Positions 3,589 to 31,312 of a stretch of DNA of 34,828 nt are shown here, one piece after another. How positions within the stretch are numbered: position 1 is the first letter of the stretch; each line of letters opens with the position of its first letter. The notes beneath the pieces were generated by a model. That model was given only the letters and a program-made list of their open reading frames with translations. It had not been told where the DNA came from and did not search any database. The position numbers and the translations under genes are program-made. The DNA is taken from positions 1-34,828 of IMG/VR virus record IMGVR_UViG_3300045777_000088, one strand, 5' to 3'. This DNA is from a virus.

Positions 3589-3604
3589 TTTTTAGGAGCA
3601 TTCC

Positions 3605-3982: not shown

Positions 3983-4500
3983 TGGCGCTGCGGTTCATGG
4001 TGCTAGGTGCGCCGCGGTCGGGAACCGCCTGGATGGCGAACTTCCTCTCGACCGATCGCTACCATTGCTACCACGATCCGCTGTTCGAGAGGCATTACGC
4101 CGACTTGGACAACTTGTACTTGCCCGGCAAGCACGTCGGCGTCGCCTGCACCGGCCTTGCGCTGTTTCACAAATGGGTGAACCAGCATCCATGCCCGAAG
4201 GTCATCCTGCACCGAACGCCGGACTTGGTGAATGCGAGCCTAAAAGCCATCGGCCTGCCGCCCGCGCCGCTGCGATTGTTCGAAGCGCTGTGGAAGATCA
4301 AAGGCAAGCACGTCGAGTGGACCGACCTGTTCGGGCATGAGATGGCGAACATCCACCTTCACCTGAAGTTGGGGCCGTTCGACTTGGAGCGATGGGAAAT
4401 GCTCAGGAACATGAAAATCACCGAGATTCACACTCGGCGCAGGCAAGATCCGCAGGTATTATCGCGTCTCATGAAAGATGCGTTTGAGCACGGCCTGTGA
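3982..4500 (+). CDS. Sulfotransferase-like P-loop protein
   Basis: The protein has 172 residues. Its N-terminus reads FMVLGAPRSGTAWM, which matches the 5'-phosphosulfate-binding loop of PAPS-dependent sulfotransferases (GAPRSGT at 9-15). Around residues 74-86, VILHRTPDLVNAS places an Arg (R78) and a Ser (S86) as in the 3'-phosphate-binding loop of that family. The C-terminal half has several His residues (HEMANIHLHLKL) and basic residues. It is shorter than cellular sulfotransferases (about 250-300 residues), so it may be a minimal or degenerate enzyme. It lies between fibre and ejection genes in the late operon, so the inferred target is a virion protein or host surface sugar. An unrelated P-loop role cannot be excluded. 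Confidence 0.6.
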   Translation: MALRFMVLGAPRSGTAWMANFLSTDRYHCYHDPLFERHYADLDNLYLPGKHVGVACTGLALFHKWVNQHPCPKVILHRTPDLVNASLKAIGLPPAPLRLFEALWKIKGKHVEWTDLFGHEMANIHLHLKLGPFDLERWEMLRNMKITEIHTRRRQDPQVLSRLMKDAFEHGL

Positions 4501-5599: not shown

Positions 5600-7198
5600 A
5601 TGGATGACCAGATAGCCCCGGTCGACGATGCCCCGGACGCTCCGGACGCCGCGCCCGAAAACAGCGACCTAATTGCGGACTACCGCCGGCACCTCTACGA
5701 AAACACCGGCGATCGCGTCGGCGCGCGCGCAGCGGCCCGCCCTGCCGCGCCAGCAGGCGGCGCTGGGCCGATGATTGCGCCCGGGCCCTCTGCGCAACCC
5801 CAGGGCGCAGGACCGGCCGTAGAGGCTCCCAGCGCCCCGGATGCGCCCATGATCGCCCCGGTCGGCCAAGCCCCGCAGGCCCCCAATGCGCCGCAAGCCG
5901 CTCAAGCGCCTCAAGCCCGGCAGGCCGCCATGGCGCGCGGCGCTCCGCAGGCGACGCAGGCCCCGACCATCGACGGCGCTCCGACCAACCCCGTACCGGC
6001 AGGGCTCCCGTTCGGGCCCGGCGCACCTCCCCTGTCGATGGGCGGCGCCACCTCCCCGAGTTCGGGGGCTCAGCCGGACCCGACCAATAAACCCGCGGCG
6101 GCGCACGTCATCAAGGGCAAGAAAACCGAGGACGGCAAGCCGCTGGTGAACATTCAGCCGCCGGATCACGACGCGGACACGGATTTCGACAAGAAAAAAC
6201 TCGCGGACGTGCACACGCCGGCGGATTTGGTCGACGCCCTGAAACCCGGCGCCCGGACCCGGTACATGGACTGGTGGGAACAGCAGCACGGCGACATCAA
6301 CGCCCGCTACGACCAGATGCGCGCGGAATTGGGCGCCCGGCCGGACCCGAACCGGGAACCGACCCGGCAGGAGAAATTTACCGAACTGATGAATTTCGGC
6401 CTCCAACTCATGCAAAACGCCCGGCGCGGCGCGGATCCGGTCGCGGCGGCCGGGCAGTCGGTGCAGCAGGCGTTCGGCGCGCAGAAAGCCAAGCAGCAGG
6501 CGCAGACGGAAGATTACGACACCAAGGTTGCCGGCATCGAAGGCCAGCGCCAAACTCAACTCAAAGATTTGGGCAATTACGGCCAGGCGGTGCGCGAGGA
6601 TTCGCTAATCAAGAATCAGGACGTGCAGACGGCCAACGCCTATGCGTCGATGCTCAAACCGCCCAAGACCGGCCAGCCGATCACGCGCGTCACGCCCGAT
6701 GGCACGCAGCTGCAATACAACCAGGATTCCGGGGCTTGGGACGTCTCCCTGACGAGCGACGGCAAGCCGGTGAAGCTCGACCCCAACACGGGGCCTCGAG
6801 GGGGGCAAAAGGGAGCGCCCGCTCGCATGCAGGAATTCAATCAGTTGATCAATGAGCAGCACATGGATCCGAACCGCGCGCTTGCAGCCGTGTACGGCAC
6901 CGGCGGGTACAAACCTGATGACCCGCAAAAAACCTACAACAGCATCTATTTGGCGGCAAAACGTCAATACGAGCCCGAAGAAGATGCGAAAGCGGAAGCT
7001 GAGCGCATGACCGCAGTGGTTCACGGCGACAATTGGCGCGGCAAAATGGCGAGCCGAAACGCACCGCCCATCAAGGGCAAGCCGCCCGCCCCGCCTTCGG
7101 TCGCCCCGCCGCCGAACAAGATCGGCGTTTTCAACGGCTGGAAGTGGCGCCGCGGCGCCGATGGCAAGCCCGAGGCGGTAGGCCCGGCCAATGGATGA
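5600..7198 (+). CDS. Pro/Ala-rich putative ejection protein
   Basis: The protein has 532 residues, with an ATG preceded by AGGAGA that overlaps the upstream TAG. Residues 1-165 are low-complexity Pro/Ala/Gln (repeated APQA, PQAPN, QAPQA), probably disordered. Residues ~175-370 are charged and helical (TPADLVDALKPGARTRYMDWWEQ, KFTELMNFGLQLMQNARRG) and followed by a Lys/Gln-rich coiled segment. Residues ~375-400 contain a small beta motif (ITRVTPDGTQLQYN). The C-terminus is Pro/Lys-rich. The stop overlaps the start of the giant gene by eight bases, so the two are probably co-translated. It most resembles internal virion proteins that accompany a giant ejected protein, but I know no named family. 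Confidence 0.55.
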   Translation: MDDQIAPVDDAPDAPDAAPENSDLIADYRRHLYENTGDRVGARAAARPAAPAGGAGPMIAPGPSAQPQGAGPAVEAPSAPDAPMIAPVGQAPQAPNAPQAAQAPQARQAAMARGAPQATQAPTIDGAPTNPVPAGLPFGPGAPPLSMGGATSPSSGAQPDPTNKPAAAHVIKGKKTEDGKPLVNIQPPDHDADTDFDKKKLADVHTPADLVDALKPGARTRYMDWWEQQHGDINARYDQMRAELGARPDPNREPTRQEKFTELMNFGLQLMQNARRGADPVAAAGQSVQQAFGAQKAKQQAQTEDYDTKVAGIEGQRQTQLKDLGNYGQAVREDSLIKNQDVQTANAYASMLKPPKTGQPITRVTPDGTQLQYNQDSGAWDVSLTSDGKPVKLDPNTGPRGGQKGAPARMQEFNQLINEQHMDPNRALAAVYGTGGYKPDDPQKTYNSIYLAAKRQYEPEEDAKAEAERMTAVVHGDNWRGKMASRNAPPIKGKPPAPPSVAPPPNKIGVFNGWKWRRGADGKPEAVGPANG

Positions 7199-10100
7199 CG
7201 CATCGCCCTACGAAAGCCTAGAGGATGACACCAGCGGCCCCTACGAGAGTCTCGAGGACGAAAACCCGCACGCCGCGCGCCTGACGCCGCCCGGGGACTT
7301 CCGGCAGGAAGGCGCCTACCAAGGCTGGCTTGAGATGCACGCCAAGCCGCAGCAGCCCGGCCGCGTCACGCGCGACTTGGAGTTCCCCGGCACCGGGTAC
7401 GAAAAAGGCACCGACGCCGACCACACCTTAAGTTTGGGCTCGGACTACAACGCCGTCACCCATGACCTTCGAGGCATGTGGAACAAGTACGCGACCCAAG
7501 ATCCGGTCTCCGGGCAGTTGGATTTGGAGCCCACCGCGGCGCAGATCGATGAATTCGCCCTCCCCGGCATGCGCGGGTTCACCGCGGACTCGAAGTTCGC
7601 CAAGGGCGTGCCGGCCGACCAGTTGGGTTCCTGGAACGACGATCACACCGAGTACCACCCGCCCGGCTGGCAACCGGAATCCGCCACCGCGCGCACGATG
7701 AAAGCCGCGTCCGAGGCGGCGGGACGCACCTACGATCAGGTGTCGGCCGGGTTGGCGCGCGGCAAACAGCGAAACCTCGCCACCGAATCGATGACCGACC
7801 AGGCGCTGGCCGATCAAACCTTGGCCGATCCGCTCAAGATCGGCGCGCAGAGCGCGCGCCAGAACTTGGCGGTCGTCGGCGGTCAAACCGGGATTTTGGA
7901 TCCGGACACCGTGGCCGACCAGATTGCGAGCGCGGAGAAGGCCAAACCGCCGTTGCCAGCGTTCCGGCGCGCCGCGGACGAGCAGCGCGAGAAGGCGGGG
8001 AGTTTCTTGGGCGTGCTCGATTCCTACGTCGAGAACCCTCGAGCAACTCTCGCCACGGTCATGCAGGGACTTTCAGAGGGTGGCGTGTCGCTGGGGCTCG
8101 CAACCGGCGGGGGCGCGGCGGCGGGCGCCGTGGGCGGCCCCGTGGGCGCGGCTTTGGGCACGGCGGCGGGCGCGGGCACAGGCGGGTACTTGGATGCCTA
8201 CGGCAGCACCATCCTGCAGACCATCAAGGCTTCCGGGGTGGACCTCGCGGACAAGGATGCGGTTTCCGCGGCGCTTAAAGACCCCGCTTTGATGGCAAAG
8301 GCGGCGGCGGCCGGAGAGAAAGCCGGCATCCCGGCGGCGATCATCAACGCCATCTCGTTTGGCGTCGCGGGCAAGCTCTACGAACCGGCCAAAACGCTGG
8401 CCGGCGGCGGCCGGCTGGGCACCGCGGCGGGTATTGGCGCCGAAACCGTAGGCCAAGCCGGCATCGGCGCTGGCGGCGAGGCGACGCGCGAGGCGGTTCA
8501 GGACGACAAGATGGACCCCGGCCGCATTGCCGAGGCGGGACTGTCCCAAGTCGCCCCCACCCTGGCGTTCACCGCCCTGCACGCGCGCGGCCGACCGGCC
8601 GAGTCTCAGGCCGAGACCCAAGCCGAGGCCGAGCAGCCGGCCGGCGGGTTCAACATCGATGACGTCAAGCCGCAAACTGGCGCCCCGGCCTTGGGCGGCT
8701 CCAAAGCGAGCGCCAGCGACACGTACTACCCCGGCTACCGTTGGGATCCTGATGCGCCGAATCCGCAGCCAGGGAATCCCGATCGCAAGGGCAAGTACGT
8801 CCCGACCGGCGAGCAGCCGAGCGCCCAAGAGCCCAAGCCTGCCCGCGCGGCGCCGAAAAAGGCTCAGGAAAACAATGCATTGGAAAGTCCGGCCGCGGAA
8901 GAACCGCCGCCGCGCGAGGAACGGCCGGGAGAGCCGCCGATCATCGATGCCGAGTTTCAGGACTTGCCACCCAAAGCCAAGGCTCTCACCCTTCAAGCGA
9001 CAAATCCGGACGCGGTGACGGTCGAACACACCGATTCGGGGTCGGTGGTGAAGGTCGACGATGTCCCCATTTCGACCCACGACACCCCGGAGGCGGCCGA
9101 ACAGGTGGCGCAGGGCGCCCGGGAAGCCATCGAAACCGAGGTCAGCAAGGCCGAACCCGCTGCGGAAACCCCGCTTGAGCGCACGCAGCCAATGCCGCCC
9201 GAGCGGCGCTCCAACACGGAACTGCGCCAGCGCGTCAACGACATGACCCCGGAGCAGCTGCGCGCCGCTTTGCTGCAGGACCATTTGACCCCGCTCCTGT
9301 CGAAACGCGGCTGGGACGAGCGAGACGCTCGCCCGACCATGATCCACATGGACCTGGACAGTTTGAAGGCGCTGAACGATCAGGCGTCCTACGACACCGG
9401 GGACCAGATCCTCAAAGCCGCCGGGCATGCGATCGCGGACGAGTTTGGGTCCGATCACGGCGCTCGAGTGGGCGGCGATGAGTTCAAGGCCGACCACGAC
9501 ACCCCGGAGGCCGCGCACGAAGCGATGAACCGGCTGAACCAGCGCCTAGCCGGGACCAAGATCGAAGTCACCTTGCCGGACGGCCGGAAGGTCAACATCA
9601 ACGGCATCGGCCTCTCGTATGGCGTAGGAGCATCGGACCATGAAGCAGAAACCAACCTCCACGCCCACAAAGCCAGTCGCGAGGCTGAAGGCACACGTTC
9701 CCCCCGCGGCCAACTCCCTGCGGGAACAACTATTACCGCTCCTGAAACAAGGGGGGAAAGTGACCAAAGTCACCCTGCCGCCGAAGAAGCCGGCCGGGAA
9801 GAAATAGCGCCGGAGAAACCCCCGGCGGTCGAAGGTCAGACCCACCTCGGCACGAACGCCGAAGGCGAGCACGTCTACGAGGACGAAAAAGGCGTCCGGA
9901 CGGCGATCAATCCCGAAACCGGGTCGGTGAACACCGAAAACGTCGGCTTGCGGCCGGTGCGCGGCCCAAACGGCACCATCAAATACGAGCATGTGCTCCA
10001 CAACCCGGAAGATCCGCGGTTTGAAGTGGAGAAGCCGGCTGATGTCGAAAAAGCAAAAAGAGCAGCCCGCGCGCCGAAGGTTTCGCGATATACGATCAAT

Positions 10101-13100
10101 GACCTGATAGACGGAGATGGCCCGGAAACTGTCATAGTTCGCCATTATCCAGACGGCAAGGTGACGGCTGCCATTGGCGAAGCCGCAGATGATCGTCATA
10201 TACAAGTAGACATCACGAAGATGATTGAGGCTGGCGCTACTCCCGAGCGAGCCATCGCGCAACATTTTGGGGAGGACACCAGCGGAAAGAACGTCGAACG
10301 TCAGCCAGAGACGCAACCCGCCCCGGATGAGGCGAAAGAGCCACCGGCTGTTGAAGGCGCCGCCGCCGAAGCGCAAACTGAAACCCATGGAAATGGAAAT
10401 CTACCGGCCGAGCGAGTACCCGAAACCGGTGCTCGAGCAGATGAAGGCAATGCCGCCGTTGGCGATCGAAATCGCGAACCGGTGGATGAGGGGATGGCCG
10501 AAAGCGGTGAAAGAGCACCTGAAAACGGGCCAGTACCTGAAATTCCTGAAAGCGCAGGAGGAACAGGAACGGAACGTGTTGAGCCAGCCGGGGAATCGGC
10601 ATCTGGCGAATCACGAGATAGCGGAACTGTACGGCCTGAGTCCGAAGCCGCCGATGCCGGAGACCACCGCCTAGACAACGAGGAATTGGGCAAAGGCAGC
10701 TTGCGCAGCAAGTACCGCGACAACGTCGCCGCCATCAAAATCCTCAAGGCCCTTGATACCGAAGGGCGCGTCGCCACCCCCGAAGAACGATCGGAGCTTG
10801 CGCGCTACGTCGGCTGGGGCGCAATGAAAGGCGTATTCGACCCCGCCAACAAGCAGTGGGCGAAACAGCACGAAGAACTGAAATCCCTTTTGACGCCCGC
10901 CGAATGGCGCGCCGCCCGCGCCTCGACGTTGAACGCTCATTACACCAGCAAGCCAGTCGTCAAAGGCATTTTTGATGCCATCCAACATTTGGGATTCGAT
11001 CGCGGCCGGGTGCTCGAGCCTTCTGTGGGTACGGGCAATTTCTTTGGACTCATGCCGCCCGACATGCGCGGCGGATCCGAACTGCACGGCGTTGAGCTCG
11101 ATCCGCTTACGGCCAAAATTGCCAAGGCTTTGTACCCTTCTGCGAACATCAAACAGATGGGATTTCAGGATTTCGACATTCCCGCGGAGTATTTCGATGC
11201 AGTCATTGGAAACCCACCCTTCGGCAATGAGCCCATCGTGGATAGCGCGCGCAGCCCCTATTCTGGCGCATCGATCCACAATTACTTTCTCTCCAAAGCC
11301 ATCGATAAGCTACGCCCGGGCGGCATCATGGCCGTGGTGGTCTCGCACAACTTCCTGGATGCACGCAACTCCAAAACGCGCGAATGGATCGCGCAACATG
11401 CGGACCTGATCGGCGCCGCGCGTCTCCCGCAAACCGCTTTCAAAGACACCGCCGGCACCGAGGTAGTGACCGACGTTGTTGTGTTACAAAAACGCGCTCC
11501 CAACACCAAAGGCAACGGCGATCAGTGGGTAGACACGGTCACTCAGAAGAACCGCGATCCAAAAACGGATTTGGAGCACGAGCACAGCGTCAATAAATGG
11601 ATGGCAAACCGTCCGGAAAACGTCTTGGGCGAACCCTCGGCCGCCGGAACCATGTACCGGCCTGGCGAATACACGGTCATGCCCACCGGGGATTTGGACA
11701 AACAAATCGACCAATGGGTGCAGCAGCTGCCGCAGGGCATTTACACAGGTGTCGAACGCGGCCCGCTGGAAGCCGATCAACCGGACGTCGCCATTCCGGA
11801 AGGCGTCAAGGTCGGTTCCTATTTCGTCGACTCGTCCGGCGCGGTGCGCACGCGGACCCCGGATGCGCTTGGACGGCAAACCTCAATTCCTTGGCAACAT
11901 CCAAACTTGAAAGCGCTCGATCGCGTCAAACGCATGATCGGACTGCGCGACCTGTTGCGCGAACAGATGCGGATGGAGCGCTCCGGAGAGGCAACGCCTA
12001 AAGACATCGAAAAAAACCGCAAGAAGCTCAACGCCGCCTACGATCAATTCCTGACCAAGTACGGGCTTTTGAACACACCCGTCAACCGTCGATTGTTTTT
12101 GGACGACACCGAGGCTCCGCTGGTATTGGCGCTTGAGTTCGATTACGACCGCGGTGTAGGCAACGCGACGGCGGAACGCGAAGGCATCGAGGCGCGACCA
12201 CCATCGGCCAGAAAAGCCGACATTTTCAAACAGCGGGTGCTGTTCCCGCCGGCCGACAACATCAAGGTCAGCAACGCCAAAGATGCGCTGTTGGCGAGCC
12301 TGAATTTCAAAGGCACCGTCGACCCGCAGTACATGAGCCAGGTGTACGACAAGTCCCCCGAAGCGATCGAACATGAGCTAGGCGATGTGGTGTTCCGCGA
12401 CCCGCAAAAAGGTCTGGTCACCGCGGATGAGTATTTGTCCGGCGACGTCAAAACGAAATTGGAAGAAGCCAAAGCTGCGGCGCTTGAAAAAAACGTCGCA
12501 GCGCTCGAAAAGGTCATCCCCCAGGACAAACTGCCATCGCAGATCCACGCGACGTTGGGTGCGGCATTCGTCCCGGAGGACGTGTACGGCGAGTTCTATC
12601 GACACATTACCGGCGCCCCGCATGAAGTTCGGTACGTCCCGGCTTTGGGCCAGTGGTTCACAAAAGAGAAAGGTCAGTTCGACAACGGTCGCAACGGCGA
12701 CCTGTTTGGCACCAAAGACATATCGGCTCAGGGAATCTTGGATAAGACGATGGCGGGCCAAGCGGTACTCATCACCCGCGTCATGCGCAATTCAGACGGC
12801 AGTACCAGCACGGTCGTCATGCAGAACGAGACTGAACTCGCCCGCGCAAAACAGGAGGCTATCAAAGACGAATGGAAGAAGTGGCTGTGGAGCGACGCCG
12901 AAAGGGCTGATCGGGTGGCGGGCATTTACAATGACAAATTGAATCGCATCGTCAATCGCAAATTCGACGGCCTGCACCTGACGTTTCCAGGCATGTCGCC
13001 GGCCATCAGCCTGTTGGATCATCAGAAAAATGCCGTGTGGCGCGGCCTTCAATCCCGCCAGATGCTTCTCGACCATGTCGTCGGCGCGGGCAAAACCTAC

Positions 13101-16100
13101 GCCATGGCAACCCTCGCCATGGAAATGCGCCGGCTGGGAATATCCAGAAAGCCCATGCTCGCGGTGCCGAATCACCTGACCGGGCAATGGCGATCGGAGT
13201 TTTCCAAACTTTACCCTTCGAGCTATATCCTGGTGGCGGAACCGGAGGATTTTCAGAAAGCCAATCGTCAAAAGTTCTTTTCCAAAATAGCGACCGGCGA
13301 TTGGGACGCGGTCATTGTCGGCCATTCATCGCTCAAGAAAATCGGCTTGCCGCCAGAAACTGAAAAGAAAATCATCACCGAACAGATGGACCGGCTTTCG
13401 GAAGCCATCGAGATGATGAAGCGCGAGCGCGGCGATCGAAACATCATCCGCGACATGGAGAACATCAAGGCGCGTCTTGAGGCAAAGTTCAAGACCAAGG
13501 TCAACAATCTTGGAGAACGCGATAAGGTGGTCAGTTTCGACGAACTGGGCTTGGATTCCCTGATGGTCGACGAACTGCACGAATTCAAAAACCTGTTTTA
13601 CACCTCGACCATGGCTCGAGCGGCCGGCATGGGCAACCCGACCGGATCCGACAAGGCGTTCGATTTGTTCGTCAAATCCCGCTGGCTCACAGATACGTTC
13701 GGAGACAAAGCGCCGATCATCGGAGCAACCGGAACGCCGGTCAGCAATTCGCTCGTCGAGATGTACAACATGCAGCGTTATCTGCAATACCCGACGTTGC
13801 AAAAGATGGGGCTGGATGTCTTTGATTCCTGGGCCAAGCAATTCGGCAACATGGAATCGGTTTACGAGGTCGCCCCATCCGGAACCGGCTGGCGCAATTC
13901 GACGCGGTTTCAAAAATTCGCGAACCTGCCGGCGCTGATGTCGCTTTACAAGACGTTCGCGGACACGGTCACTCTCGATAATTTGAAGGCTCAAGAAACC
14001 GCCCAAGGGCGCACATTCCCAGTGCCAAAGCTCGAAACGGGCGCACCGATCAACGTGGTGGCGCCGCGCTCCAAGCTGCAAGAAAATTTCATGGGCACCC
14101 CCAAAATGCAGATGGCGGCCGATGGCTTGCCGGATTTTGGTTTGTCCGTTCGGCCAGGGGATCCAAACCGCATCAAGAGTTTGCGATTCATCAAAGACGA
14201 CAAAACCGGCAAGTATGAAGCGCGCGGCATGCGCGACGACGACCGGGAATACTCGTTGGGTACGGGGTACGAAACCCAAGAAGATGCCGAGATGGCGATG
14301 GTGCAAAGAGCGCTGACGCCATCGCTTGCCGTTGATCCGGAATCCATCTTGGGGAAATTCGAGAACCTTCGCCGTTTGATGAAGGAAAGCAAAGGCAAGA
14401 TCAACGCCCTGTCGATTACCGGCGCCGCCAACAAAGCGGGATTGGATTATCGATTGATTGACCCGACTGCGCCGGATCATCCAGGTTCGAAGATCAATCG
14501 AGCGGTCGAAAACATCGTTGAGAACTACAAGCGTTGGGATAAAGACAAAGGAACGCAGTTGGTGTTTTGCGATTTGTCCGTGCCGCTGTCGGCCCGCGCT
14601 TCATCCGCGTCCGCGCCCCGGCTGGTGTACGTGCGCGACCCCTCGACGCAATTGCTGACGCACAAGCGCGGCACCATGCACACCGTTGTTGGGCATGAGC
14701 AAATTCCCTATTTCGCGGTCGAGCGCGGCACCAAAGACGAAAAGCGCATCGATGTTTACGACGCCGCATCTGGCCGGCTCGTAAATCAGAACCTCAAAAC
14801 CAAGGCCGAAGCGCATCAGTGGGCAAAAACCACTTTGGATGACGAAAACGCCAGGACCCGCTGGCATCTTGCTCGCAACGAGGTCGGAGAAATCGATCAA
14901 GATTCGATCGACGACTACAACAACACGCAGGAGATTGACCCCGAGGAAACTCCAATATTTGGACGAGACGACATAGCGGGTGCTTCCGGGCCGGCAAAAT
15001 TCAGCGTGTACGACGACATCAAAGCGAAACTGATCAAGGCGGGCATTCCAGCGCGTGAGGTCGCTTTTATTCACGACTACAACTCGCCAACCGCCAAGCA
15101 AAAGCTGTTCGACCAAGTCAATGCCGGAGACATCCGGGTGCTTTTGGGATCCACGGCCAAAATGGGCGCGGGCACCAACGTCCAAAAACGCGCCGTGGGT
15201 TTGCACCACATCGACGCGCCGTGGCGTCCGTCCGATCTTGAGCAGCGGGATGGCCGCGTAATCCGTCGCGGCAACATGCTGTACGACCGCGATCCAGACG
15301 GGTTTCGGATGCGGATATACCGCTACGCCACTGCGCAAACCTATGATACCCGCCGCTGGCAGGTGCTTGAACACAAGGCACGCGGCATCGAACAACTGCG
15401 CAACTACGATTCCTCTATCGAAGAAATAGACGACATCGAAGGTCAAGCGGCCGACGCTGCCGACATGAAAGCCGCCGCATCCGGGGATCCTCTTATCTTG
15501 GAGGAAACCAAGCTGCGCAACGAGGTCCAAGCGCTCGAGCGGCTCTCGGCTGCGACCGCCGACCAGCAAGCCGCCATGCGCCAAAAAGCGCGGCAAGCGC
15601 GGCAGTACGCCAATGTAACGCTGCCGGATCAAATCGCCAGGCTGAAAGCCGAAGGCAAAATCGCGACCGCCAACCCGCCAAGCAAAGAGGGCTGGGCACC
15701 ACTTGAGGTGGCCGGCAAAGAGTTTCATGCCATAGACAAGTTCGAGCCGTATTTGGCCGACATCGTTGCCTCGATGCGGAACAAAGAACTGACCGTTCCG
15801 GTGCGCATCGAGTACCGAGGGCTGGCGTTCCAAATTGAAGCCCGCGCATCTTACGATGGCAGTGTTGCCATCAAGCTCAAAGCGCCGAGCGGCGAGGAAA
15901 TGAGCTATTACACTGCCAAGGATACGGTTTCTCCATCCGGATTCCTGACTCGACTCGCCAATTACGTCGCCAACATTCCCGATCGCATTGAGTTCAACAA
16001 GCGCCAAATCGAAAGCAGCCTAAAAACCGCCGAAGATTCCGAAGAAGCGTCCAAACGCGGTTTCGATAAACAGAAAGAATTGGACGATGCCCGCGCCCGA

Positions 16101-19100
16101 TTCAAAAAGGTTCGCAATGCCCTGTTGGCAAAAGGGCCGCCGGTTTCCGACGAGGAACGGCCCATGTTTGAAAGCGGCACGATCGCGCAGCGGGAAGGCT
16201 TGGAAGATTTGGGGCTCGGTGAGCGCTTGCACGAATTTGAGCGCGGCCAGAAACGCGACATGCTGGCCCGCGGCGACGGCGCCGGCGGCATGCCGAAGGC
16301 CGAGGTGGAGCGCCAAGCGCAGGCAATCATCGACGGTTTCACGATCAAGCCCAAAGGGCTGGTGGTGGTGCAGTCAGCCCGCGAGCTCGCCCGCACCGAC
16401 TTGGGTCCCAACATGCGCGCCGCGGCGGCGGCCGGCGCCAACCCCATCGCCAGCTATTTCCCTGGTACGGGAAAAATCTACATCGTCGCGGACGCCATCA
16501 AGAGCCCTGAACACCTTGCCGGCATTGTGGCGCATGAAATGGTGGTGCATTTCGGCCTGCGGTCCATGCTGGGTTCCCCGTACAGCGCCGAGTACCGCCA
16601 GCTGCTACGAAACATCGCTCAAGCGCTGCCGGCCGCCACGGACTTCCACGGCCGGCGCGAGATTTCAAACTACGACCCGACCCGCAAAAGCCACAAGCAG
16701 ATCGGCGCCGAGGAAGCGCTGGCCTACTACGAACAGGCTCAGGCGCAGGGCGGCAAGATCCCGCCCGCTTGGAAGCAGTGGATCGACAAGGTGCATCAGA
16801 TCGTGCGCGACTGGCTGCGCAAGATTGCGGGCCTACCGGAGAAATTCGACGACCTGTACGTGCGCAATGTCTTGAATGCGCTGCGTCAACACCTTCGAAG
16901 CGGCCGAGACCGATCGACCGGCGAGGGCGATGCCAGCAACGCAATGCCCAAAGACACGTTCTATTCCAGCGTCGAGCGCGTACTGGCCGAGGACGGAGAA
17001 GGTGAAGGCGGCAGTAATTCCCTGCCCGCTCACATCGTCAAAATCACCCCCGAGATGCGCAACTCCGTGCTGGAAGGCATGCCGCTGTTCGCGCGCCCGA
17101 TGTTTGCTCGAGACGGCGATCCGGCGCCGCCTTACGAGGAACCGCTGAAAGAGCGCACGCCGAGCAAGGTCTACATGGCGGCCCGGCGCGCGGCGACTTC
17201 GCTGGTCGACAACCGCCTCGTCATGGACATTCGCAAGATCCTGAACCCCAAGGACGTGAGCGCGGTATCCAAGGAAGTGGCGGCCCGAACGATTCCGTAC
17301 TTGGGCGAACTGGCGCACATGAAAGCGCAAGCACAGGAGCGCCTTGAGGAATTCGCCCGCGTGATCGGCAAACTGTCCCCGCAGGATCAGTTGGACATGA
17401 TCCATGCCATCGAGACCGGCCAACGTCAGCCCATCGCGGCTTTGCAGCCGGCGGCCGATGCCATGCGGCAGATGCTCGACTTCTGGCGCGACCAGGTGCG
17501 GGCGCTGGGCGACGGGTATCTGGAAAACTACCTCGAAAACTACTTCCCGCATTTCTGGCAGGACAAAGCATCGGACGTCGAGAAGCTCTTTGCCAGCATC
17601 CAGGGCCGCAGGACCATGCGCGGGCCGGCGACGTTCCTGAAACAGCGTGTCGTGCCGACCATCCGCGACGGCATCGAGTGGGGATTGACCCCGGCGACCA
17701 TCAACCCCTTGGTCATGACCTTGCTCAAGGTCCATGAAATGCAGCGGTTCATTTCGGGCGTCAGCATGATGCGCTCGTACAAGGAGCACGGCCTTGCGGT
17801 GTTTCAGCGGGCCGGCAAACCCACCCCGGCGGGCTGGGTGAAGATCGACGATCCGATTGCCCGCGTGTCGCAGTGGTCGGAGGAAGAACAGGGGTTCATT
17901 GAGCGCGGCCACTACATCATGCCGGAGGACGGCGGGCGGATCATCAACAACCACCTGTCTGCTTCAAGGCTTCGAAACTTCGCGCCGGCCCAAGCATTCC
18001 GGTTCGCGACGAACCTTCTGAACTCCATGCAGTTGGGCCTGTCGGCCTTCCATTTGGGATTCACGACCCTGGATGCCATGGTCTCGAAGAACGCGCTGGC
18101 GATCGAGCACATGATGCACTTTGAGCCGATCCGCGCGGCCGGGGCGTTCCTCGAGGCCGCCACCCCTGCCGGCGCAATCATGAACATCCGCCGCGGCTAC
18201 CAGCTGATGCAGGCGTACCTGAACCCTTCCGGTGCGACCCCGGAATTGAAAGCGCTGGTCGCGGCGCTGGCGGCCGGCGGCGGTCGGGTAAAAATGGACA
18301 CCTACTTCATGCCGACCCACGGGCAATCCCCGTTCCGCGGGTACGGCTTGGGCGCGATCCGCGGCGACATCCGCGCCGCCTTGGCGCAACCGCACGACAA
18401 GGTCAGCGCTTTGACCAAGGCGATCGGCAACATTCCGGTCGAGTACGCGCAGAAGTTCTGGAACGAACTGCGGGTGTTGGCACGGATCAATCCCGCGTTC
18501 GTGGTGCCGTTTGAAGTTTTAGGCCGCATCACGCGCGCCACCACGTCGCCAATCATGGAGTACATCGTCCCTTGGCAGAAATTGGGCGTGTTCTCGGATT
18601 TGGCGTCGAACTGGATCCGGCGCAATCCCGGCGCCGATGCGGAGGATGTGGCGAAGGCCATGCAATCCATCTGGCGCTCGGTCGACAACCGCTTAGGCGA
18701 AATGGTTTACGACGACAAATTTTGGGACCGCACGTTTAAAGACACGTTGCACCTTACCATTCGCGCGGTCGGCTGGAACTTTGGCACCATCGAGGAAATC
18801 GGCGGGGCGCCGCATGACGTGTTGAAGGCGGTCGACAAAGGCTTACGGACTGGCAAGATCAACGCGGACGATTTTGGTCACAAGGCTACCTACGTGATGG
18901 GCCTCATGTTCACCACGGCGGTCATTGGCGCGATCACGCAGTACCTGATGACTGGGAAGGGCCCGGACGAACTCAAGGACTACATCTTCCCGAAAACCGG
19001 CCGCTTGCTGCCGGACGGGGCCGCAGAGCGCATTGCGCTGCCTTCCTACGCCAAGGACATTTGGGAGTACGCGCACCACCCGGGCACGACCATAATCCAC

Positions 19101-19766
19101 AAAGCCAACCCCATTTTCGGGGAGATTGCGGACCAGTGGAACGGCACCGACTATTTCGGCCACCCCATCTACAACCCGTCCGACAAGAGCACGGTGTTCG
19201 ACTGGCATAGCGAGGACCGCGCCAAGCATTTCTTCGGGGAAGCGCTGCCCTTCTCGGTGCAGGGGCAGAAACAGTTGCAGGGCGCCAAGGAGCCGGGGTT
19301 CACCGGCGAAGCGTTCAGCGCCATGCCGTTCGTCGGGTTGGCGCCGGCCCCGGGCGTGGTGACCAACCCGGAGAAGATCGAATCGTTCCAGCACTACAAG
19401 GAACTGCAGGCGTGGAAGGACAAGCTGCAATTCGATTTGAAGCAGGCGCGCAAGGCCGGCGACAAGACGAAGATTCAGGACATTCAGCGGCAGTTGCAGG
19501 ACAGCCGGCGCGAGAACGCGCAGGAGCACTCCGAGTACATGCGCCGCAAGATGGAAGCGCAGAAGCGCATCCAGGATCAGAAGCGCGGCGGCAACACGTC
19601 GGAGCTCATGCGGACGATCGGGCCGCTCATCGACGGAAGTTCGTCCAGGGCCGAGATGCAGCAACGCATTGAAAAGGCGGGCTATCCGGCGCTGGCTGGG
19701 CTTTTGGGAAATTTACCCGACGAAATTAGGCCACAAGTCAAAGCCAAGCTTGCGGAGTACGCATGA
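7191..19766 (+). CDS. Giant DarB-like virion protein: GGDEF, N6-adenine MTase, SF2 helicase, metallopeptidase-like, ejection region
   Basis: This is a 4191-residue polyvalent protein. Order of parts: unknown N-terminus (1-290); Gly/Ala hydrophobic segments (~299-337, ~372-440) suited to membrane insertion; GGDEF domain (~674-834, motif 761-765); acidic linkers; N6-adenine methyltransferase (~1168-1440, motif I LEPSVGTGNF 1275-1284, NPPF 1341-1344); SF2 helicase (GAGKT 1965-1969, DELH 2127-2130, GATGTP 2178-2183, QRDGRVIRRG 2685-2694) with an extra ~130-residue insert after LVFCD (2457-2461); HExxxH segment (HEMVVH 3115-3120); helical virion region (~3300-4191) with a membrane-like stretch near 3900 and a terminal coiled coil. 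Methylase plus helicase is the architecture of P1 DarB, an anti-restriction protein injected with DNA. The protein is inferred to be packaged and ejected to protect and process incoming DNA. Confidence 0.85.
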   Translation: MDDASPYESLEDDTSGPYESLEDENPHAARLTPPGDFRQEGAYQGWLEMHAKPQQPGRVTRDLEFPGTGYEKGTDADHTLSLGSDYNAVTHDLRGMWNKYATQDPVSGQLDLEPTAAQIDEFALPGMRGFTADSKFAKGVPADQLGSWNDDHTEYHPPGWQPESATARTMKAASEAAGRTYDQVSAGLARGKQRNLATESMTDQALADQTLADPLKIGAQSARQNLAVVGGQTGILDPDTVADQIASAEKAKPPLPAFRRAADEQREKAGSFLGVLDSYVENPRATLATVMQGLSEGGVSLGLATGGGAAAGAVGGPVGAALGTAAGAGTGGYLDAYGSTILQTIKASGVDLADKDAVSAALKDPALMAKAAAAGEKAGIPAAIINAISFGVAGKLYEPAKTLAGGGRLGTAAGIGAETVGQAGIGAGGEATREAVQDDKMDPGRIAEAGLSQVAPTLAFTALHARGRPAESQAETQAEAEQPAGGFNIDDVKPQTGAPALGGSKASASDTYYPGYRWDPDAPNPQPGNPDRKGKYVPTGEQPSAQEPKPARAAPKKAQENNALESPAAEEPPPREERPGEPPIIDAEFQDLPPKAKALTLQATNPDAVTVEHTDSGSVVKVDDVPISTHDTPEAAEQVAQGAREAIETEVSKAEPAAETPLERTQPMPPERRSNTELRQRVNDMTPEQLRAALLQDHLTPLLSKRGWDERDARPTMIHMDLDSLKALNDQASYDTGDQILKAAGHAIADEFGSDHGARVGGDEFKADHDTPEAAHEAMNRLNQRLAGTKIEVTLPDGRKVNINGIGLSYGVGASDHEAETNLHAHKASREAEGTRSPRGQLPAGTTITAPETRGESDQSHPAAEEAGREEIAPEKPPAVEGQTHLGTNAEGEHVYEDEKGVRTAINPETGSVNTENVGLRPVRGPNGTIKYEHVLHNPEDPRFEVEKPADVEKAKRAARAPKVSRYTINDLIDGDGPETVIVRHYPDGKVTAAIGEAADDRHIQVDITKMIEAGATPERAIAQHFGEDTSGKNVERQPETQPAPDEAKEPPAVEGAAAEAQTETHGNGNLPAERVPETGARADEGNAAVGDRNREPVDEGMAESGERAPENGPVPEIPESAGGTGTERVEPAGESASGESRDSGTVRPESEAADAGDHRLDNEELGKGSLRSKYRDNVAAIKILKALDTEGRVATPEERSELARYVGWGAMKGVFDPANKQWAKQHEELKSLLTPAEWRAARASTLNAHYTSKPVVKGIFDAIQHLGFDRGRVLEPSVGTGNFFGLMPPDMRGGSELHGVELDPLTAKIAKALYPSANIKQMGFQDFDIPAEYFDAVIGNPPFGNEPIVDSARSPYSGASIHNYFLSKAIDKLRPGGIMAVVVSHNFLDARNSKTREWIAQHADLIGAARLPQTAFKDTAGTEVVTDVVVLQKRAPNTKGNGDQWVDTVTQKNRDPKTDLEHEHSVNKWMANRPENVLGEPSAAGTMYRPGEYTVMPTGDLDKQIDQWVQQLPQGIYTGVERGPLEADQPDVAIPEGVKVGSYFVDSSGAVRTRTPDALGRQTSIPWQHPNLKALDRVKRMIGLRDLLREQMRMERSGEATPKDIEKNRKKLNAAYDQFLTKYGLLNTPVNRRLFLDDTEAPLVLALEFDYDRGVGNATAEREGIEARPPSARKADIFKQRVLFPPADNIKVSNAKDALLASLNFKGTVDPQYMSQVYDKSPEAIEHELGDVVFRDPQKGLVTADEYLSGDVKTKLEEAKAAALEKNVAALEKVIPQDKLPSQIHATLGAAFVPEDVYGEFYRHITGAPHEVRYVPALGQWFTKEKGQFDNGRNGDLFGTKDISAQGILDKTMAGQAVLITRVMRNSDGSTSTVVMQNETELARAKQEAIKDEWKKWLWSDAERADRVAGIYNDKLNRIVNRKFDGLHLTFPGMSPAISLLDHQKNAVWRGLQSRQMLLDHVVGAGKTYAMATLAMEMRRLGISRKPMLAVPNHLTGQWRSEFSKLYPSSYILVAEPEDFQKANRQKFFSKIATGDWDAVIVGHSSLKKIGLPPETEKKIITEQMDRLSEAIEMMKRERGDRNIIRDMENIKARLEAKFKTKVNNLGERDKVVSFDELGLDSLMVDELHEFKNLFYTSTMARAAGMGNPTGSDKAFDLFVKSRWLTDTFGDKAPIIGATGTPVSNSLVEMYNMQRYLQYPTLQKMGLDVFDSWAKQFGNMESVYEVAPSGTGWRNSTRFQKFANLPALMSLYKTFADTVTLDNLKAQETAQGRTFPVPKLETGAPINVVAPRSKLQENFMGTPKMQMAADGLPDFGLSVRPGDPNRIKSLRFIKDDKTGKYEARGMRDDDREYSLGTGYETQEDAEMAMVQRALTPSLAVDPESILGKFENLRRLMKESKGKINALSITGAANKAGLDYRLIDPTAPDHPGSKINRAVENIVENYKRWDKDKGTQLVFCDLSVPLSARASSASAPRLVYVRDPSTQLLTHKRGTMHTVVGHEQIPYFAVERGTKDEKRIDVYDAASGRLVNQNLKTKAEAHQWAKTTLDDENARTRWHLARNEVGEIDQDSIDDYNNTQEIDPEETPIFGRDDIAGASGPAKFSVYDDIKAKLIKAGIPAREVAFIHDYNSPTAKQKLFDQVNAGDIRVLLGSTAKMGAGTNVQKRAVGLHHIDAPWRPSDLEQRDGRVIRRGNMLYDRDPDGFRMRIYRYATAQTYDTRRWQVLEHKARGIEQLRNYDSSIEEIDDIEGQAADAADMKAAASGDPLILEETKLRNEVQALERLSAATADQQAAMRQKARQARQYANVTLPDQIARLKAEGKIATANPPSKEGWAPLEVAGKEFHAIDKFEPYLADIVASMRNKELTVPVRIEYRGLAFQIEARASYDGSVAIKLKAPSGEEMSYYTAKDTVSPSGFLTRLANYVANIPDRIEFNKRQIESSLKTAEDSEEASKRGFDKQKELDDARARFKKVRNALLAKGPPVSDEERPMFESGTIAQREGLEDLGLGERLHEFERGQKRDMLARGDGAGGMPKAEVERQAQAIIDGFTIKPKGLVVVQSARELARTDLGPNMRAAAAAGANPIASYFPGTGKIYIVADAIKSPEHLAGIVAHEMVVHFGLRSMLGSPYSAEYRQLLRNIAQALPAATDFHGRREISNYDPTRKSHKQIGAEEALAYYEQAQAQGGKIPPAWKQWIDKVHQIVRDWLRKIAGLPEKFDDLYVRNVLNALRQHLRSGRDRSTGEGDASNAMPKDTFYSSVERVLAEDGEGEGGSNSLPAHIVKITPEMRNSVLEGMPLFARPMFARDGDPAPPYEEPLKERTPSKVYMAARRAATSLVDNRLVMDIRKILNPKDVSAVSKEVAARTIPYLGELAHMKAQAQERLEEFARVIGKLSPQDQLDMIHAIETGQRQPIAALQPAADAMRQMLDFWRDQVRALGDGYLENYLENYFPHFWQDKASDVEKLFASIQGRRTMRGPATFLKQRVVPTIRDGIEWGLTPATINPLVMTLLKVHEMQRFISGVSMMRSYKEHGLAVFQRAGKPTPAGWVKIDDPIARVSQWSEEEQGFIERGHYIMPEDGGRIINNHLSASRLRNFAPAQAFRFATNLLNSMQLGLSAFHLGFTTLDAMVSKNALAIEHMMHFEPIRAAGAFLEAATPAGAIMNIRRGYQLMQAYLNPSGATPELKALVAALAAGGGRVKMDTYFMPTHGQSPFRGYGLGAIRGDIRAALAQPHDKVSALTKAIGNIPVEYAQKFWNELRVLARINPAFVVPFEVLGRITRATTSPIMEYIVPWQKLGVFSDLASNWIRRNPGADAEDVAKAMQSIWRSVDNRLGEMVYDDKFWDRTFKDTLHLTIRAVGWNFGTIEEIGGAPHDVLKAVDKGLRTGKINADDFGHKATYVMGLMFTTAVIGAITQYLMTGKGPDELKDYIFPKTGRLLPDGAAERIALPSYAKDIWEYAHHPGTTIIHKANPIFGEIADQWNGTDYFGHPIYNPSDKSTVFDWHSEDRAKHFFGEALPFSVQGQKQLQGAKEPGFTGEAFSAMPFVGLAPAPGVVTNPEKIESFQHYKELQAWKDKLQFDLKQARKAGDKTKIQDIQRQLQDSRRENAQEHSEYMRRKMEAQKRIQDQKRGGNTSELMRTIGPLIDGSSSRAEMQQRIEKAGYPALAGLLGNLPDEIRPQVKAKLAEYA
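9640..9807 (+). CDS. Candidate nested small gene inside giant gene, +1 frame
   Basis: This ORF encodes 55 residues and is read one base ahead of the giant gene. It has its own ATG with TAGGAG nine bases upstream. The product is Lys/Pro-rich with a Leu helix (ANSLREQLLPLLKQGGK) and a basic tail ending KKPAGKK. In its second half, codons mostly end in G or C, whereas giant-frame codons there often end in A or T and give an acidic low-complexity peptide. In its first part the giant frame still looks like the natural end of the GGDEF domain, so true dual coding or a chance ORF are both possible. No function can be assigned. Confidence 0.4.
   Translation: MKQKPTSTPTKPVARLKAHVPPAANSLREQLLPLLKQGGKVTKVTLPPKKPAGKK
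10387..10674 (+). CDS. Nested gene inside giant gene, +1 frame, unknown function
   Basis: This ORF encodes 95 residues, again one base ahead of the giant gene; the frame extends further up with possible starts at 10309 and 10225. The product looks like a real globular protein: MEMEIYRPSEYPKPVLEQM, then RWMRGWPKAVKEHLKTGQY, and NHEIAELYGL. By hand count about 76 of 95 codons end in G or C in this frame, against about 36 of 95 in the giant's frame, where the peptide is a Glu/Pro/Gly/Ala linker. The ribosome site is weak. The TAG at 10672-10674 sits about 20 bases before the methyltransferase part begins. I infer an older small gene now overprinted by the giant frame. Its function is unknown and its expression unproven. 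Confidence 0.55.
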   Translation: MEMEIYRPSEYPKPVLEQMKAMPPLAIEIANRWMRGWPKAVKEHLKTGQYLKFLKAQEEQERNVLSQPGNRHLANHEIAELYGLSPKPPMPETTA

Positions 19767-28105: not shown

Positions 28106-28426
28106 GTGCCCAATCCCTCGATGCGCGATGCCCGCGCCAAGCTTGCCCCGAACCCGGTGTTCACGACCGACGCGAACGGCAACCGGTCGGGCGATCGGCC
28201 CCACGTCGGGCCCGCCTCCCCGGATGTCGTCCACGCCGCGCTGCAGGCTCAGGACGCGCTCGCCAAGTCGCCCCGGCCGACCTCCCAGTCACAGATCGGG
28301 GACGTGCCGGCCAGCCCTTCAGCGCCCGACTCGGCCACCCGCGACCTGACCGTGCAGACCGCCGCATCGCGCCTGCGCAACCGCGGGATGCAGATCGACA
28401 AGCAAATCGACGACGCGGGCGGGTGA
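28106..28426 (+). CDS. Small hydrophilic protein, unknown
   Basis: This 106-residue protein starts at GTG 28106 with GAGGGT upstream, one base after the previous stop. The sequence is rich in Ala, Pro, Ser and Asp (AKLAPNPVFTTDANGNRSGD, DVVHAALQAQDALAKSP) and ends in a short charged helix (RLRNRGMQIDKQIDDAGG). No motif is visible. Its stop overlaps the start of the XRE-type gene (GTGA), so the two are translated together. Confidence 0.55.
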   Translation: MPNPSMRDARAKLAPNPVFTTDANGNRSGDRPHVGPASPDVVHAALQAQDALAKSPRPTSQSQIGDVPASPSAPDSATRDLTVQTAASRLRNRGMQIDKQIDDAGG

Positions 28427-28656
28427 CGAAGAACCAGTCGGAGCAGGTTGACCAAGTCAAACTGATTCTGATCGAAGGGATCGCAGGGAAAATCCGGGCC
28501 AAGTACGATTTCCAGCGGGACGCCGCTGCGGGTTTGAAATTGCACGAGGGCGTCATATCGCGCCTCTGCAATGGCAATTACGATCGGTTCAGCCTGGCGT
28601 TTCTGATCACGCTCGCGTCCCAGCTGGGGTGCTCGGTCAAAATCCAGGTCACCTGA
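28423..28656 (+). CDS. XRE-family helix-turn-helix regulator
   Basis: The protein has 77 residues and starts at a GTG that overlaps the previous stop. The central part (QRDAAAGLKLHEGVISRLCN) is a helix-turn-helix in which AAAGLKL and GVISRLCNG supply the two helices. The following NYDRFSLAFLITLASQLGC is the dimer-side helix seen in small XRE proteins of the COG5606/HigA2 kind. It should bind an operator as a dimer. Its place directly before the large terminase suggests control of the packaging or late genes; no toxin gene is found beside it. Confidence 0.8.
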   Translation: MTKNQSEQVDQVKLILIEGIAGKIRAKYDFQRDAAAGLKLHEGVISRLCNGNYDRFSLAFLITLASQLGCSVKIQVT

Positions 28657-28696: not shown

Positions 28697-31312
28697 ATGA
28701 TGTTTGACCAACAGGCCCGCGACGCCTTGGAGCGCGGTGACCCGAACGACCTTCGCAAAATGCTCACCTACATCGGCGCGCTTGAGATGCGCACCGATTT
28801 TGTTTCCTTCTGCAAAGCCGCATGGATTCAGGTCGCGCCGCAGAAGCTCGTCTGGGGTTGGCACCTCGACGCGCTGTGTTTGCCGGCCGAAACCACCATC
28901 ACTACCGAATCAGGACCCATGTCGATTGGCGACATGGTCGAATCCGGTTGGCAAGGAAATGTTGCCAGCTATTGTCATGTTACGGCCCGGACGGAATGGA
29001 AACCCGTCAAAATGCTGATGAAGAACCCGCCTCAACCGTTGTACCGAGTGACTTTTTCGAATGGCACGGTTCTTGAGCTGACTGGCAATCATCCGATATT
29101 TGTCGAAGGGCAGGGGTATGTCCGCGCGGATTTACTTGAAGAAGGTCAGACCGTCTTTGGTTTGCGAGCAGTGCGGCGTGACCTACGTGCAAACCCGAAC
29201 GCGGCCAAGCAGATTTTGCAGCCGTGCGTGTTTTGGTCTATCCAAAGTGAAGCCGGAAACGGTGAAATGCCCGACTTGCGGCGGCAAAAAAACGTGGGGC
29301 GGCAAGGGATGTCGCAAATGCGCTGGAATTCGATCAAAGAAAGGATCGGACATTCCCTGCAAACATTGCGGCAAGCCGGTCTACATTACGCCAGGTCAGT
29401 TGGCAGTCGCGCCGCGCACTCATGGAGTGTTCTGCAATCGAGATTGTTACGCGGCCTATCTCGTCGGCTCCAACAATCACAATTATCTTGGTGGCTACAA
29501 CGCCGCGACCTACAAACGTGGATTCCGGTCGCAGTGCAAGAAGGTTTTGAAGCGGGAGAACTACCGCTGCTTTTTGTGTCAGGTGGATGGGAAATTGGAC
29601 GTCCATCACATCGATCGCGACGAGAGCAATCACGACCTCTGGAACCTCGTCGCGCTGTGCAGGCCTTGCCATTCCAAACAGCATCACAAACCGGTGGCAG
29701 AGATGACTCGATTGGGAGAGTTACTGTCGTCTCGATTGAGAAATCATTACGGGTATGTCCAGCCCTTTACAACATTGAAGTTGCCGACAACAACAATTAC
29801 TTCGCAAACGGAATTCTGGTCCACAATTGCGAACACCTCGTCTACATGACGCAAGGCGAAATCAGATTTTTGATGGTCTCACTTCCGCCTCGTCATACAA
29901 AAAGTTTAATCTCCAGCGTTTTGTGGCCGGCGTGGGACTGGTTGCATCGGCCGACGACCCAGTTCCTATCCGCGTCGGTCGACGACCGCCTTGCGCTTGA
30001 TTTCTCCCGCCTGTCCCGGCGCGTGATTGAGTCTCCCTGGTATCAAACCCTGTTCGCGCCCGACTGGCACCTGATGCCGGACGAGAATGCCGGCCGCCAA
30101 TACCGCAATTCCAAAGGCGGATCCCGAAACTCGACGTCGGTCCAAGGGCGCGTCACCGGCTCCGGCGGCGACTGTCAAATCGGCGATGACTTTCACTCGG
30201 CCAAGAAGATCGAATCGGACGCCACCCGCCAAGCATCCTTGGCTTGGCACGACAACGAGTGGCGATCGCGCCTCAATTCCCCGATGACCGCTCAGAAGCT
30301 CTACATAGGCCAGCGCACGCACGACAGCGACATCTACGGCCACGTGCTCGCGCAGGAAGCGAAGCGCTGGGTGTACCTCTGCCTGCCTTTGGAGTTCGAC
30401 CCCTCGCGCCGCTGCATCACCTACCCCAACAAGGGATTCGGCGTCGAGCCTGGGGCGAAGCCCATCTTCAAAGACCCGCGCAAGGAGGAAGGGGAGATTC
30501 TGGACCCCAACCGGTTCGACGCGGCGACGGCGAAGATCGAAAAGGAAATCATGTCGGCTCGAGCGTGGGCCGCGCAGTACCAGCAGCAGCCCGAGGGCCA
30601 GGGCGGCTTGATCCTAAAGCGCGCGTGGTGGCGTGAGTGGTGCTGGCCGGAAAACAGCCCGAACGCCGGCAAAGAGCGGCCGATGCCGGAGTTCTTTGAG
30701 GTGATTCAGGTCTACGACACCGCGTTCGAGGAAGATGAGGAAGCGGACTTTTCGGCCCGCACGACATGGGGGATTTTCAACTACACCGACATCCGCTACG
30801 ACGAAAACGGGAAAGTCACGCACCGCACGCAGCGGGTGTGCGCCATGCTCTTGGATGCGATGGAGGAACGGTTGTCCTACCCGGACCTTCGCGCCGAGGC
30901 GATCCAGTCGAACATCGACTTCGCGCCCGACGTGATCCTGATCGAGAAGAAGGCCTCCGGGCATAGCCTTCTGCAAGAGCTCCGCAAGAAGAAGCTACCC
31001 GTCAAAGCCGTGGGGCTCGCCGGCTCGAACGGTCGCAACCGCGGCCAGGGCGATTTGATCGCGCGCGCGCACGAGGCGTCGCTGATGCTGGAGAAGGGCG
31101 CGATTTGGTACTGCCCGCGCAGCTGGGCGTTCAAAGTCATCGACCAGGCATCGAAGTTCCCGAACGGCGACCATGACGACATTGTGAGTACCCTCACGAT
31201 GGCTTGGCAGTACATGCGGCGGCACATGGATTTGACCTTGGGGGACGAGGAAAACGACGAGGAAATCAACCCCTTTGCCTGGCACAAGCGCTCGCAGAAG
31301 CGCTACGCCTGA
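28697..31312 (+). CDS. terL: Terminase large subunit precursor interrupted by an intein
   Basis: The precursor has 871 residues. Residues 1-60 are N-extein (ending WGWHLDAL), 61-377 are an intein, and 378-871 are C-extein (starting CEHLVYMTQGEIRF). After splicing the enzyme has 554 residues, a normal size. The ATPase part has PPRHTKS (397-403), where the second position before Lys is usually Gly, and a Walker-B-like CQIGDDFHSA. The nuclease part has IQVYDTAFEEDEEADFSA, DVILIEKKASG and GDHDDIVSTLTMAW, supplying the acidic metal ligands. TerL pumps DNA into the prohead and cuts the concatemer. The intein sits before the Walker A region at a conserved HLDA-CEHL site. The gene ends in a 10-base convergent overlap with a minus-strand gene. 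Confidence 0.93.
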   Translation: MMFDQQARDALERGDPNDLRKMLTYIGALEMRTDFVSFCKAAWIQVAPQKLVWGWHLDALCLPAETTITTESGPMSIGDMVESGWQGNVASYCHVTARTEWKPVKMLMKNPPQPLYRVTFSNGTVLELTGNHPIFVEGQGYVRADLLEEGQTVFGLRAVRRDLRANPNAAKQILQPCVFWSIQSEAGNGEMPDLRRQKNVGRQGMSQMRWNSIKERIGHSLQTLRQAGLHYARSVGSRAAHSWSVLQSRLLRGLSRRLQQSQLSWWLQRRDLQTWIPVAVQEGFEAGELPLLFVSGGWEIGRPSHRSRREQSRPLEPRRAVQALPFQTASQTGGRDDSIGRVTVVSIEKSLRVCPALYNIEVADNNNYFANGILVHNCEHLVYMTQGEIRFLMVSLPPRHTKSLISSVLWPAWDWLHRPTTQFLSASVDDRLALDFSRLSRRVIESPWYQTLFAPDWHLMPDENAGRQYRNSKGGSRNSTSVQGRVTGSGGDCQIGDDFHSAKKIESDATRQASLAWHDNEWRSRLNSPMTAQKLYIGQRTHDSDIYGHVLAQEAKRWVYLCLPLEFDPSRRCITYPNKGFGVEPGAKPIFKDPRKEEGEILDPNRFDAATAKIEKEIMSARAWAAQYQQQPEGQGGLILKRAWWREWCWPENSPNAGKERPMPEFFEVIQVYDTAFEEDEEADFSARTTWGIFNYTDIRYDENGKVTHRTQRVCAMLLDAMEERLSYPDLRAEAIQSNIDFAPDVILIEKKASGHSLLQELRKKKLPVKAVGLAGSNGRNRGQGDLIARAHEASLMLEKGAIWYCPRSWAFKVIDQASKFPNGDHDDIVSTLTMAWQYMRRHMDLTLGDEENDEEINPFAWHKRSQKRYA
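28877..29827 (+). other. Intein within terminase large subunit
   Basis: The intein covers 317 residues. Block A starts CLPAETTI with the nucleophile Cys. Block B is LTGNHPIF with the conserved Thr (precursor T129) and His (H132). Blocks F and G read YNIEVADNNNYFANGILVHN, ending in His-Asn, and the next extein residue is Cys. All standard splicing residues are therefore present and splicing should work. Between block B and block F, the intein frame gives an Arg/Ser/Gln-rich peptide with no recognisable domain. The endonuclease that would normally be there is encoded by the same DNA in the +1 frame (29118-29849). Confidence 0.93.
29118..29849 (+). CDS. HNH homing endonuclease nested out of frame in the intein
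   Basis: The protein has 243 residues in the +1 frame relative to terminase and intein. The ATG at 29118 has CAGGGG just upstream, and a TTG start at 29100 is also possible. Three Cys-pair zinc motifs come first: CEQC with CSRAC, CPTC with CRKC, and CKHC with CNRDC. The HNH core is YRCFLC, then LDVHHIDRDESNHDLWNLV and CRPCHSKQH, with His163-His164, Asn176 and His185. The homing role (cutting intein-less terminase genes to spread the intein) is inferred. The last ~45 codons overlap intein blocks F/G, and the stop lies 22 bases into the C-extein. Fewer codons end in G or C than in neighbouring genes (about 59 of 100 counted), which hints at foreign origin. Confidence 0.85.
   Translation: MSARIYLKKVRPSLVCEQCGVTYVQTRTRPSRFCSRACFGLSKVKPETVKCPTCGGKKTWGGKGCRKCAGIRSKKGSDIPCKHCGKPVYITPGQLAVAPRTHGVFCNRDCYAAYLVGSNNHNYLGGYNAATYKRGFRSQCKKVLKRENYRCFLCQVDGKLDVHHIDRDESNHDLWNLVALCRPCHSKQHHKPVAEMTRLGELLSSRLRNHYGYVQPFTTLKLPTTTITSQTEFWSTIANTSST

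Follow-up and report, generated by a model that had tools for sequence, protein, structure and literature searches.

How can a virus terminase contain a complete intein whose endonuclease is written in a different reading frame? The question is raised by a 34,828-base IMG/VR virus record, IMGVR_UViG_3300045777_000088 (that whole stretch of DNA is here called the window), within which the feature under study lies at 28697-31312. This interval is, on the plus strand, a stop-free open reading frame (ORF) of 871 amino acids that matches the terminase large subunit (TerL) family phrog_38. It holds a complete intein at 28877-29827 (residues 61-377 of the TerL ORF), and the +1 frame of the same DNA codes for an HNH endonuclease. 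This layout was put forward in an earlier note made from the sequence alone, and the coordinates and a match to the PHROG HNH endonuclease family phrog_1271 bear it out. We computed both frames, their conservation, the avoidance of stops, the recurrence of the layout and the rule that governs the frames. The features of the locus are:

28697..28876, plus strand: TerL N-extein, ending ...WGWHLDAL
28877..29158, plus strand: intein N-terminal splicing region, blocks A and B (C1, T69..H72); TIGR01445 3.7e-9, hidden Markov model (HMM) of relatives 2e-30
29105..29110, plus strand: candidate Shine-Dalgarno (SD) sequence GAAGGG, 7 nt 5' of ATG 29118; predicted anti-SD duplex -6.9 kcal/mol
29118..29849, plus strand: HNH endonuclease ORF in the +1 frame, 243 amino acids from ATG 29118 (TTG 29157 alternative); phrog_1271 1e-18
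29138..29145, plus strand: alternative candidate SD sequence GAAGAAGG before TTG 29157; anti-SD duplex -5.6 kcal/mol
29159..29710, plus strand: intein-frame linker, stop-free, modelled with low pLDDT and predicted disordered, without a conserved protein in the intein frame
29711..29755, plus strand: dual-coding stretch, HINT strand (intein frame) and nuclease C-terminal tail LLSSRLRNHYGYVQPF (+1 frame)
29720..29827, plus strand: intein C-terminal splicing region, blocks F and G (..LYNIEVADNNNYFANGILVHN); TIGR01443 3.4e-8, HMM of relatives 2e-18
29828..31312, plus strand: TerL C-extein from C+1 (CEHLVYMTQGE; ATPase and nuclease domains); phrog_38 1.1e-68

The splicing residues all stand in the TerL frame, as had been claimed: Cys1 at 28877, T69 and H72 at about 29081-29092, the His-Asn pair at 29822-29827 and Cys+1 at 29828. 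Profile matches confirm this, with TIGR01445 and TIGR01443 (intein N- and C-terminal splicing regions) both above their curated cut-offs and PF14890 scoring 44-48 bits against a cut-off of 35.8. The ligated exteins match intein-less phage terminases unbroken, 530 of 792 records covering at least 80% in one place. In the AlphaFold model the predicted local distance difference test (pLDDT) is 94-98 at both ends of the HINT domain and 85-98 over residues 1-100, and in Foldseek the intein model matches solved mini-inteins (e.g. 5i0a, TMt 0.90). By its splicing residues, its HINT fold and its in-frame insertion in a conserved host gene the TerL insert is an intein, and it is predicted to splice. 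It is not a conventional endonuclease-containing intein, as the HNH lies in +1 and the middle of the intein frame matches no domain and is modelled with low pLDDT; nor is it a split intein or fractured gene, as its intein frame has 0 stops. An intron reading is unneeded, the splicing motifs being intact and the host frame open (intron models were not searched).

The +1 ORF is open from 29100 to a TGA at 29847-29849. The nuclease ORF thus continues beyond 29720 and past the intein, to 29849. The zinc Cys pairs and the HNH core (DVHHID..N....LC..CH) described in the earlier note are present, and alignment with relatives supports them, VHHID..N....N L..LC..CH and the Cys pairs being invariant across 12 aligned sequences. 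The window nuclease has the motifs of an HNH homing endonuclease, and cleavage is predicted. Its AlphaFold model has a mean pLDDT of 79.1, and a fold search gave weak matches (best E 0.012), nothing out of the ordinary for a zinc domain this small. The nuclease tail overlaps a HINT strand at 29711-29755 (E279-293, pLDDT >90), so that both frames are under constraint in this part of the overlap; the tail motif LxxxYGY is common to the window and to L107 and L108, two relatives described below.

The intein frame had been reported to be free of stops across the HNH region, and we find 0 where 7.9-9.6 are expected; a stop-free intein frame arose in 0 of 20,000 synonymous shuffles that kept the HNH protein. 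In the converse shuffles, which kept the intein protein, the +1 frame was open in 1.2%, with 3.6 stops expected. A chance open frame is ruled out by these shuffles in both directions. The same count bears on the idea that the intein is a remnant, its nuclease live and its splicing dead, with TerL made otherwise or the phage defective. A second terL copy was not seen in the record, which is possibly a fragment, and this leaves some room for a remnant; but all catalytic residues are kept, the N- and C-intein blocks are conserved with relatives, and the whole ORF has 0 stops when 7.9-9.6 are expected in the overlap alone, so that we consider a remnant very unlikely.

Selection in the two frames, which the earlier note had proposed to compare by codon position, was examined in close relative pairs (80-99% identity), and the differences lie mostly at nuclease wobble sites: 60-64% of them fall at nuclease position 3. 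Amino-acid identity in these pairs is 0.86-0.97 in the nuclease frame versus 0.70-0.92 in the intein frame. The substitutions at nuclease wobble positions indicate protein-level selection on the nuclease frame. The intein-frame overlap, with AlphaFold pLDDT mostly 34-58, is kept free of stops and no more, and is predicted to be disordered inside an intact HINT fold.

The intein occupies the same TerL position (HxDxx/CxHL, the slash marking the junction) in the window and in L107 and L108, which come from other metagenomes; the junctions read WHLDAL/CEHLVYM in the window, WHVDFI/CAHLESI in L107 and KHLDCL/CLHLEAV in L108. Both relatives carry a homologous +1 HNH (36-40% identity) in an open intein frame, and the HINT tree unites the window with L107 and L108 in a clade of good support (SH-aLRT 99). 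Compared among the three, the middle region gives z values of 33-51 in the nuclease frame versus 0.9, 4.3 and 4.3 in the intein frame. L108 has, at 2218-4260, two inteins in one terminase, one at the window site and the other near the P-loop.

IMG/VR was scanned with the window intein, which returned 24 loci, many of which keep the intein frame open and have a nuclease in +1; further scans used profiles of DUF559/PD-(D/E)XK-type nucleases and of HNH nucleases. Profiles were needed, as scanning viral contigs with one HNH query found a single locus (L026). Only loci in which a position could be assigned to the nuclease and to each splicing half were counted, 83 distinct ones including the window; about 10 further loci without a recognisable splicing half were left unclassified. 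Seeded by these nucleases and the window intein, the surveys are not a sample of all phage inteins. The nuclease is +1 relative to both splicing halves in 81 of the 83 loci, and L011 and L140 have splicing halves in different frames. A search for in-frame HNH relatives by comparison with other inteins had been suggested; an in-frame nuclease was found in none of the 83 classified loci, and the +1 layout recurs instead. Over the 14,533 nuclease codons of the 76 open loci, which are partly related (about 60 after dereplication), the intein frame contains 0 stops; synonymous shuffles lead one to expect ~707, and the third frame contains 1,077. In five other loci the intein frame has 15-39 stops, a number near expectation, with a slight deficit in L007; the split loci L002, L007, L085, L095 and L110 keep the +1 relation. 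The +1 nuclease in an open intein is a recurrent architecture across two unrelated nuclease families, not a singleton. Three other arrangements were seen. L021 (4001-4978), the single +2 example observed, has a TerL intein with an HNH_3 nuclease in +2; its intein frame is open where 2.1 stops would be expected (p 0.046). In L026 (3833-4931) an HNH lies on the opposite strand between the splicing halves and the frames are broken by stops, possibly through decay or splitting. L011 (4001-5087) is a mixed split arrangement, in which the N-intein ends in one frame and HNH and C-intein form an in-frame fusion.

Reasoning from the genetic code gives a rule for the frame. A +1 nuclease puts the T of every intein-frame stop at a nuclease wobble position. 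NNC can replace every NNT codon there without changing the amino acid, which lets any nuclease be written in +1 free of intein-frame stops; in a +2 arrangement, Met followed by a codon starting with A always gives TGA. In open loci T is found at 0 of 1,070 risky wobble positions, where safe positions are 63% T, a zero that follows from the class definition. The informative comparisons are the shuffle expectation and the contrast with split loci, in which risky and safe wobble positions alike are 76% T. The nuclease ORFs end at a small number of fixed positions in block F/G; in most relatives the stop is a TAG embedded there, and the edges of the overlap are dual-coding for intein and nuclease.

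Cultured phages have the same organization. Seven isolate-phage regions, read directly, are each annotated as a single coding sequence (CDS), which has 0 stops and contains the nuclease in +1. The host gene is TerL in Gordonia phage Clown and Synechococcus phage S-EIVl, and a helicase in Corynebacterium phi673, Pseudomonas MR14, Vibrio CP-T1, 159E43-1b and 1.088.O. By tblastn, DUF559 matched 40 phage records; the HNH alone matched 8, mostly free-standing HNHs. Eight contigs of cellular genome assemblies, possibly prophage-derived, also have the layout. Because the isolate records examined give the helicase and terminase CDSs as single genes, the nucleases are missing from annotation.

This recurrence decides between the two explanations offered in the earlier note. 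One was that two compensating indels, from sequencing error or real mutation, had disrupted a normal in-frame fusion of intein and endonuclease. It would suit the positions of the frame switches, near the end of block B and ahead of block F, the expected junctions of a fused nuclease, and the nuclease and intein otherwise match normal families. But L107 and L108 share the +1 frame at this TerL site, the 76 open loci with their two unrelated nuclease families and cultured phages have it too, and in-frame relatives number 0 of 83. Independent recurrence (~73 further open loci, isolates and cellular contigs) refutes the indel account, to which we give next to no credence; the other explanation, a free-standing HNH gene overprinted in the intein, stands.

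We read the window locus as a functional homing element of two overlapping genes, a TerL-frame intein and a separately initiated +1 HNH homing endonuclease, with a probability of roughly 0.82. The full-length precursor would be translated and the HINT domain would excise itself, yielding spliced TerL, with the ~180 codons between blocks B and F acting as a mere stop-free linker at the usual intein-endonuclease site. A ribosome initiating inside the intein, at ATG 29118 or TTG 29157 and guided by an SD-like sequence in block B, would make a stand-alone zinc-ribbon HNH ending at the TGA. This enzyme would cut intein-less terL copies, and repair would copy the element in. The layout supports the earlier suggestion that a complete endonuclease, wholly out of frame, could be expressed apart from the terminase. 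By homology, TTG 29157 corresponds in position to the GTG start of L107. Across loci, the SD-like energy at the best candidate nuclease starts has a median of -7.2 versus -4.8 kcal/mol in controls and is at or below -5 in 75% versus 49%, an enrichment that lends moderate support to internal initiation.

Several points weigh against this reading. The start of the window nuclease is ambiguous, and several relatives are without a good SD sequence; the window nuclease also lacks the block-F stop of most relatives and reads beyond the intein end. Stop avoidance is borderline (p ~0.05) in Gordonia phage Clown and L108 taken singly, where few stops are expected, and splicing, internal initiation, cleavage specificity and homing are deduced from sequence. 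The starts without a strong SD sequence, together with the +1 frame of all open survey loci, would fit programmed +1 ribosomal frameshifting out of the TerL frame, which would make an N-extein/intein-N/HNH fusion and not a separate protein. We think this unlikely, as candidate start codons lie near the first zinc ribbon in 76 of 76 open loci, SD-like sequences are enriched there, and the nuclease ORF of split relatives starts with its own ATG.

Two overlapping genes in one homing element recall several known systems. Canonical HNH or LAGLIDADG inteins likewise have a HINT domain with an endonuclease between blocks B and F, but their nuclease is an in-frame intein domain (as in L025), whereas the window nuclease is a gene of its own that overlaps the intein. 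Phage zinc-ribbon HNHs (PHROG 1271; solved structure 5h0m) share the HNH core with Cys pairs and are usually free-standing genes; here the gene is overprinted. Dassa et al. in 2009 reportedly described fractured phage genes and split inteins with a free-standing homing endonuclease between the intein halves at the canonical position. Our split loci share the +1 relation and such a nuclease between intein halves, but fractured genes are broken and need trans-splicing, whereas the present intein frame runs unbroken through an overprinted nuclease. The ShiLan domain is an out-of-frame HNH in a phage DNA methylase insertion that adds no stop, and it is thought to home (Arsenault, Gosselin and Gogarten, 2025, PMC11855218). 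The window likewise has an HNH hidden out of frame in a stop-free phage host gene; it differs in that ShiLan has no splicing domain, uses the third frame and is retained in the methylase, while here a complete intein surrounds and overlaps a +1 nuclease. In the full-text literature, whose coverage leaves out most subscription literature, we found no description of a contiguous intein with an out-of-frame endonuclease. To the earlier note's remark that its author knew of no described example should be added this related work, the ShiLan domain (2025) and the fractured genes (2009).

Two neighbouring plus-strand genes were noted in the window. A small HTH_37/XRE-type gene (28423-28656; PF13744, 1e-10) lies directly 5' of terL. 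A 4191-amino-acid ORF at 7191-19766, with N6-methyltransferase (PF07669/PF02384) and SF2 helicase domains and a GGDEF-like match at residues 695-818 (1.5e-8), resembles DarB-type virion anti-restriction proteins.

In most split relatives the C-intein start lies inside the nuclease tail. The HINT tree implies 5 changes between open and split states and the window clade is mixed, on 134 columns with many unresolved forks and with the direction not established. We lean slightly towards the view that nested-frame inteins form a class of phage mobile elements that is widespread and has so far been overlooked, that their fixed +1 geometry admits any nuclease, and that they may become natural split inteins by losing the stop-free constraint. 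These loci provide recurrent, long, same-strand overlapping genes in phages that follow a quantitatively testable rule, the +1 frame with stops removed at wobble positions, and they would separate expression of the homing enzyme from that of the host protein. The HINT tree places open overprinted inteins beside split ones, which makes it testable how natural split inteins arose.
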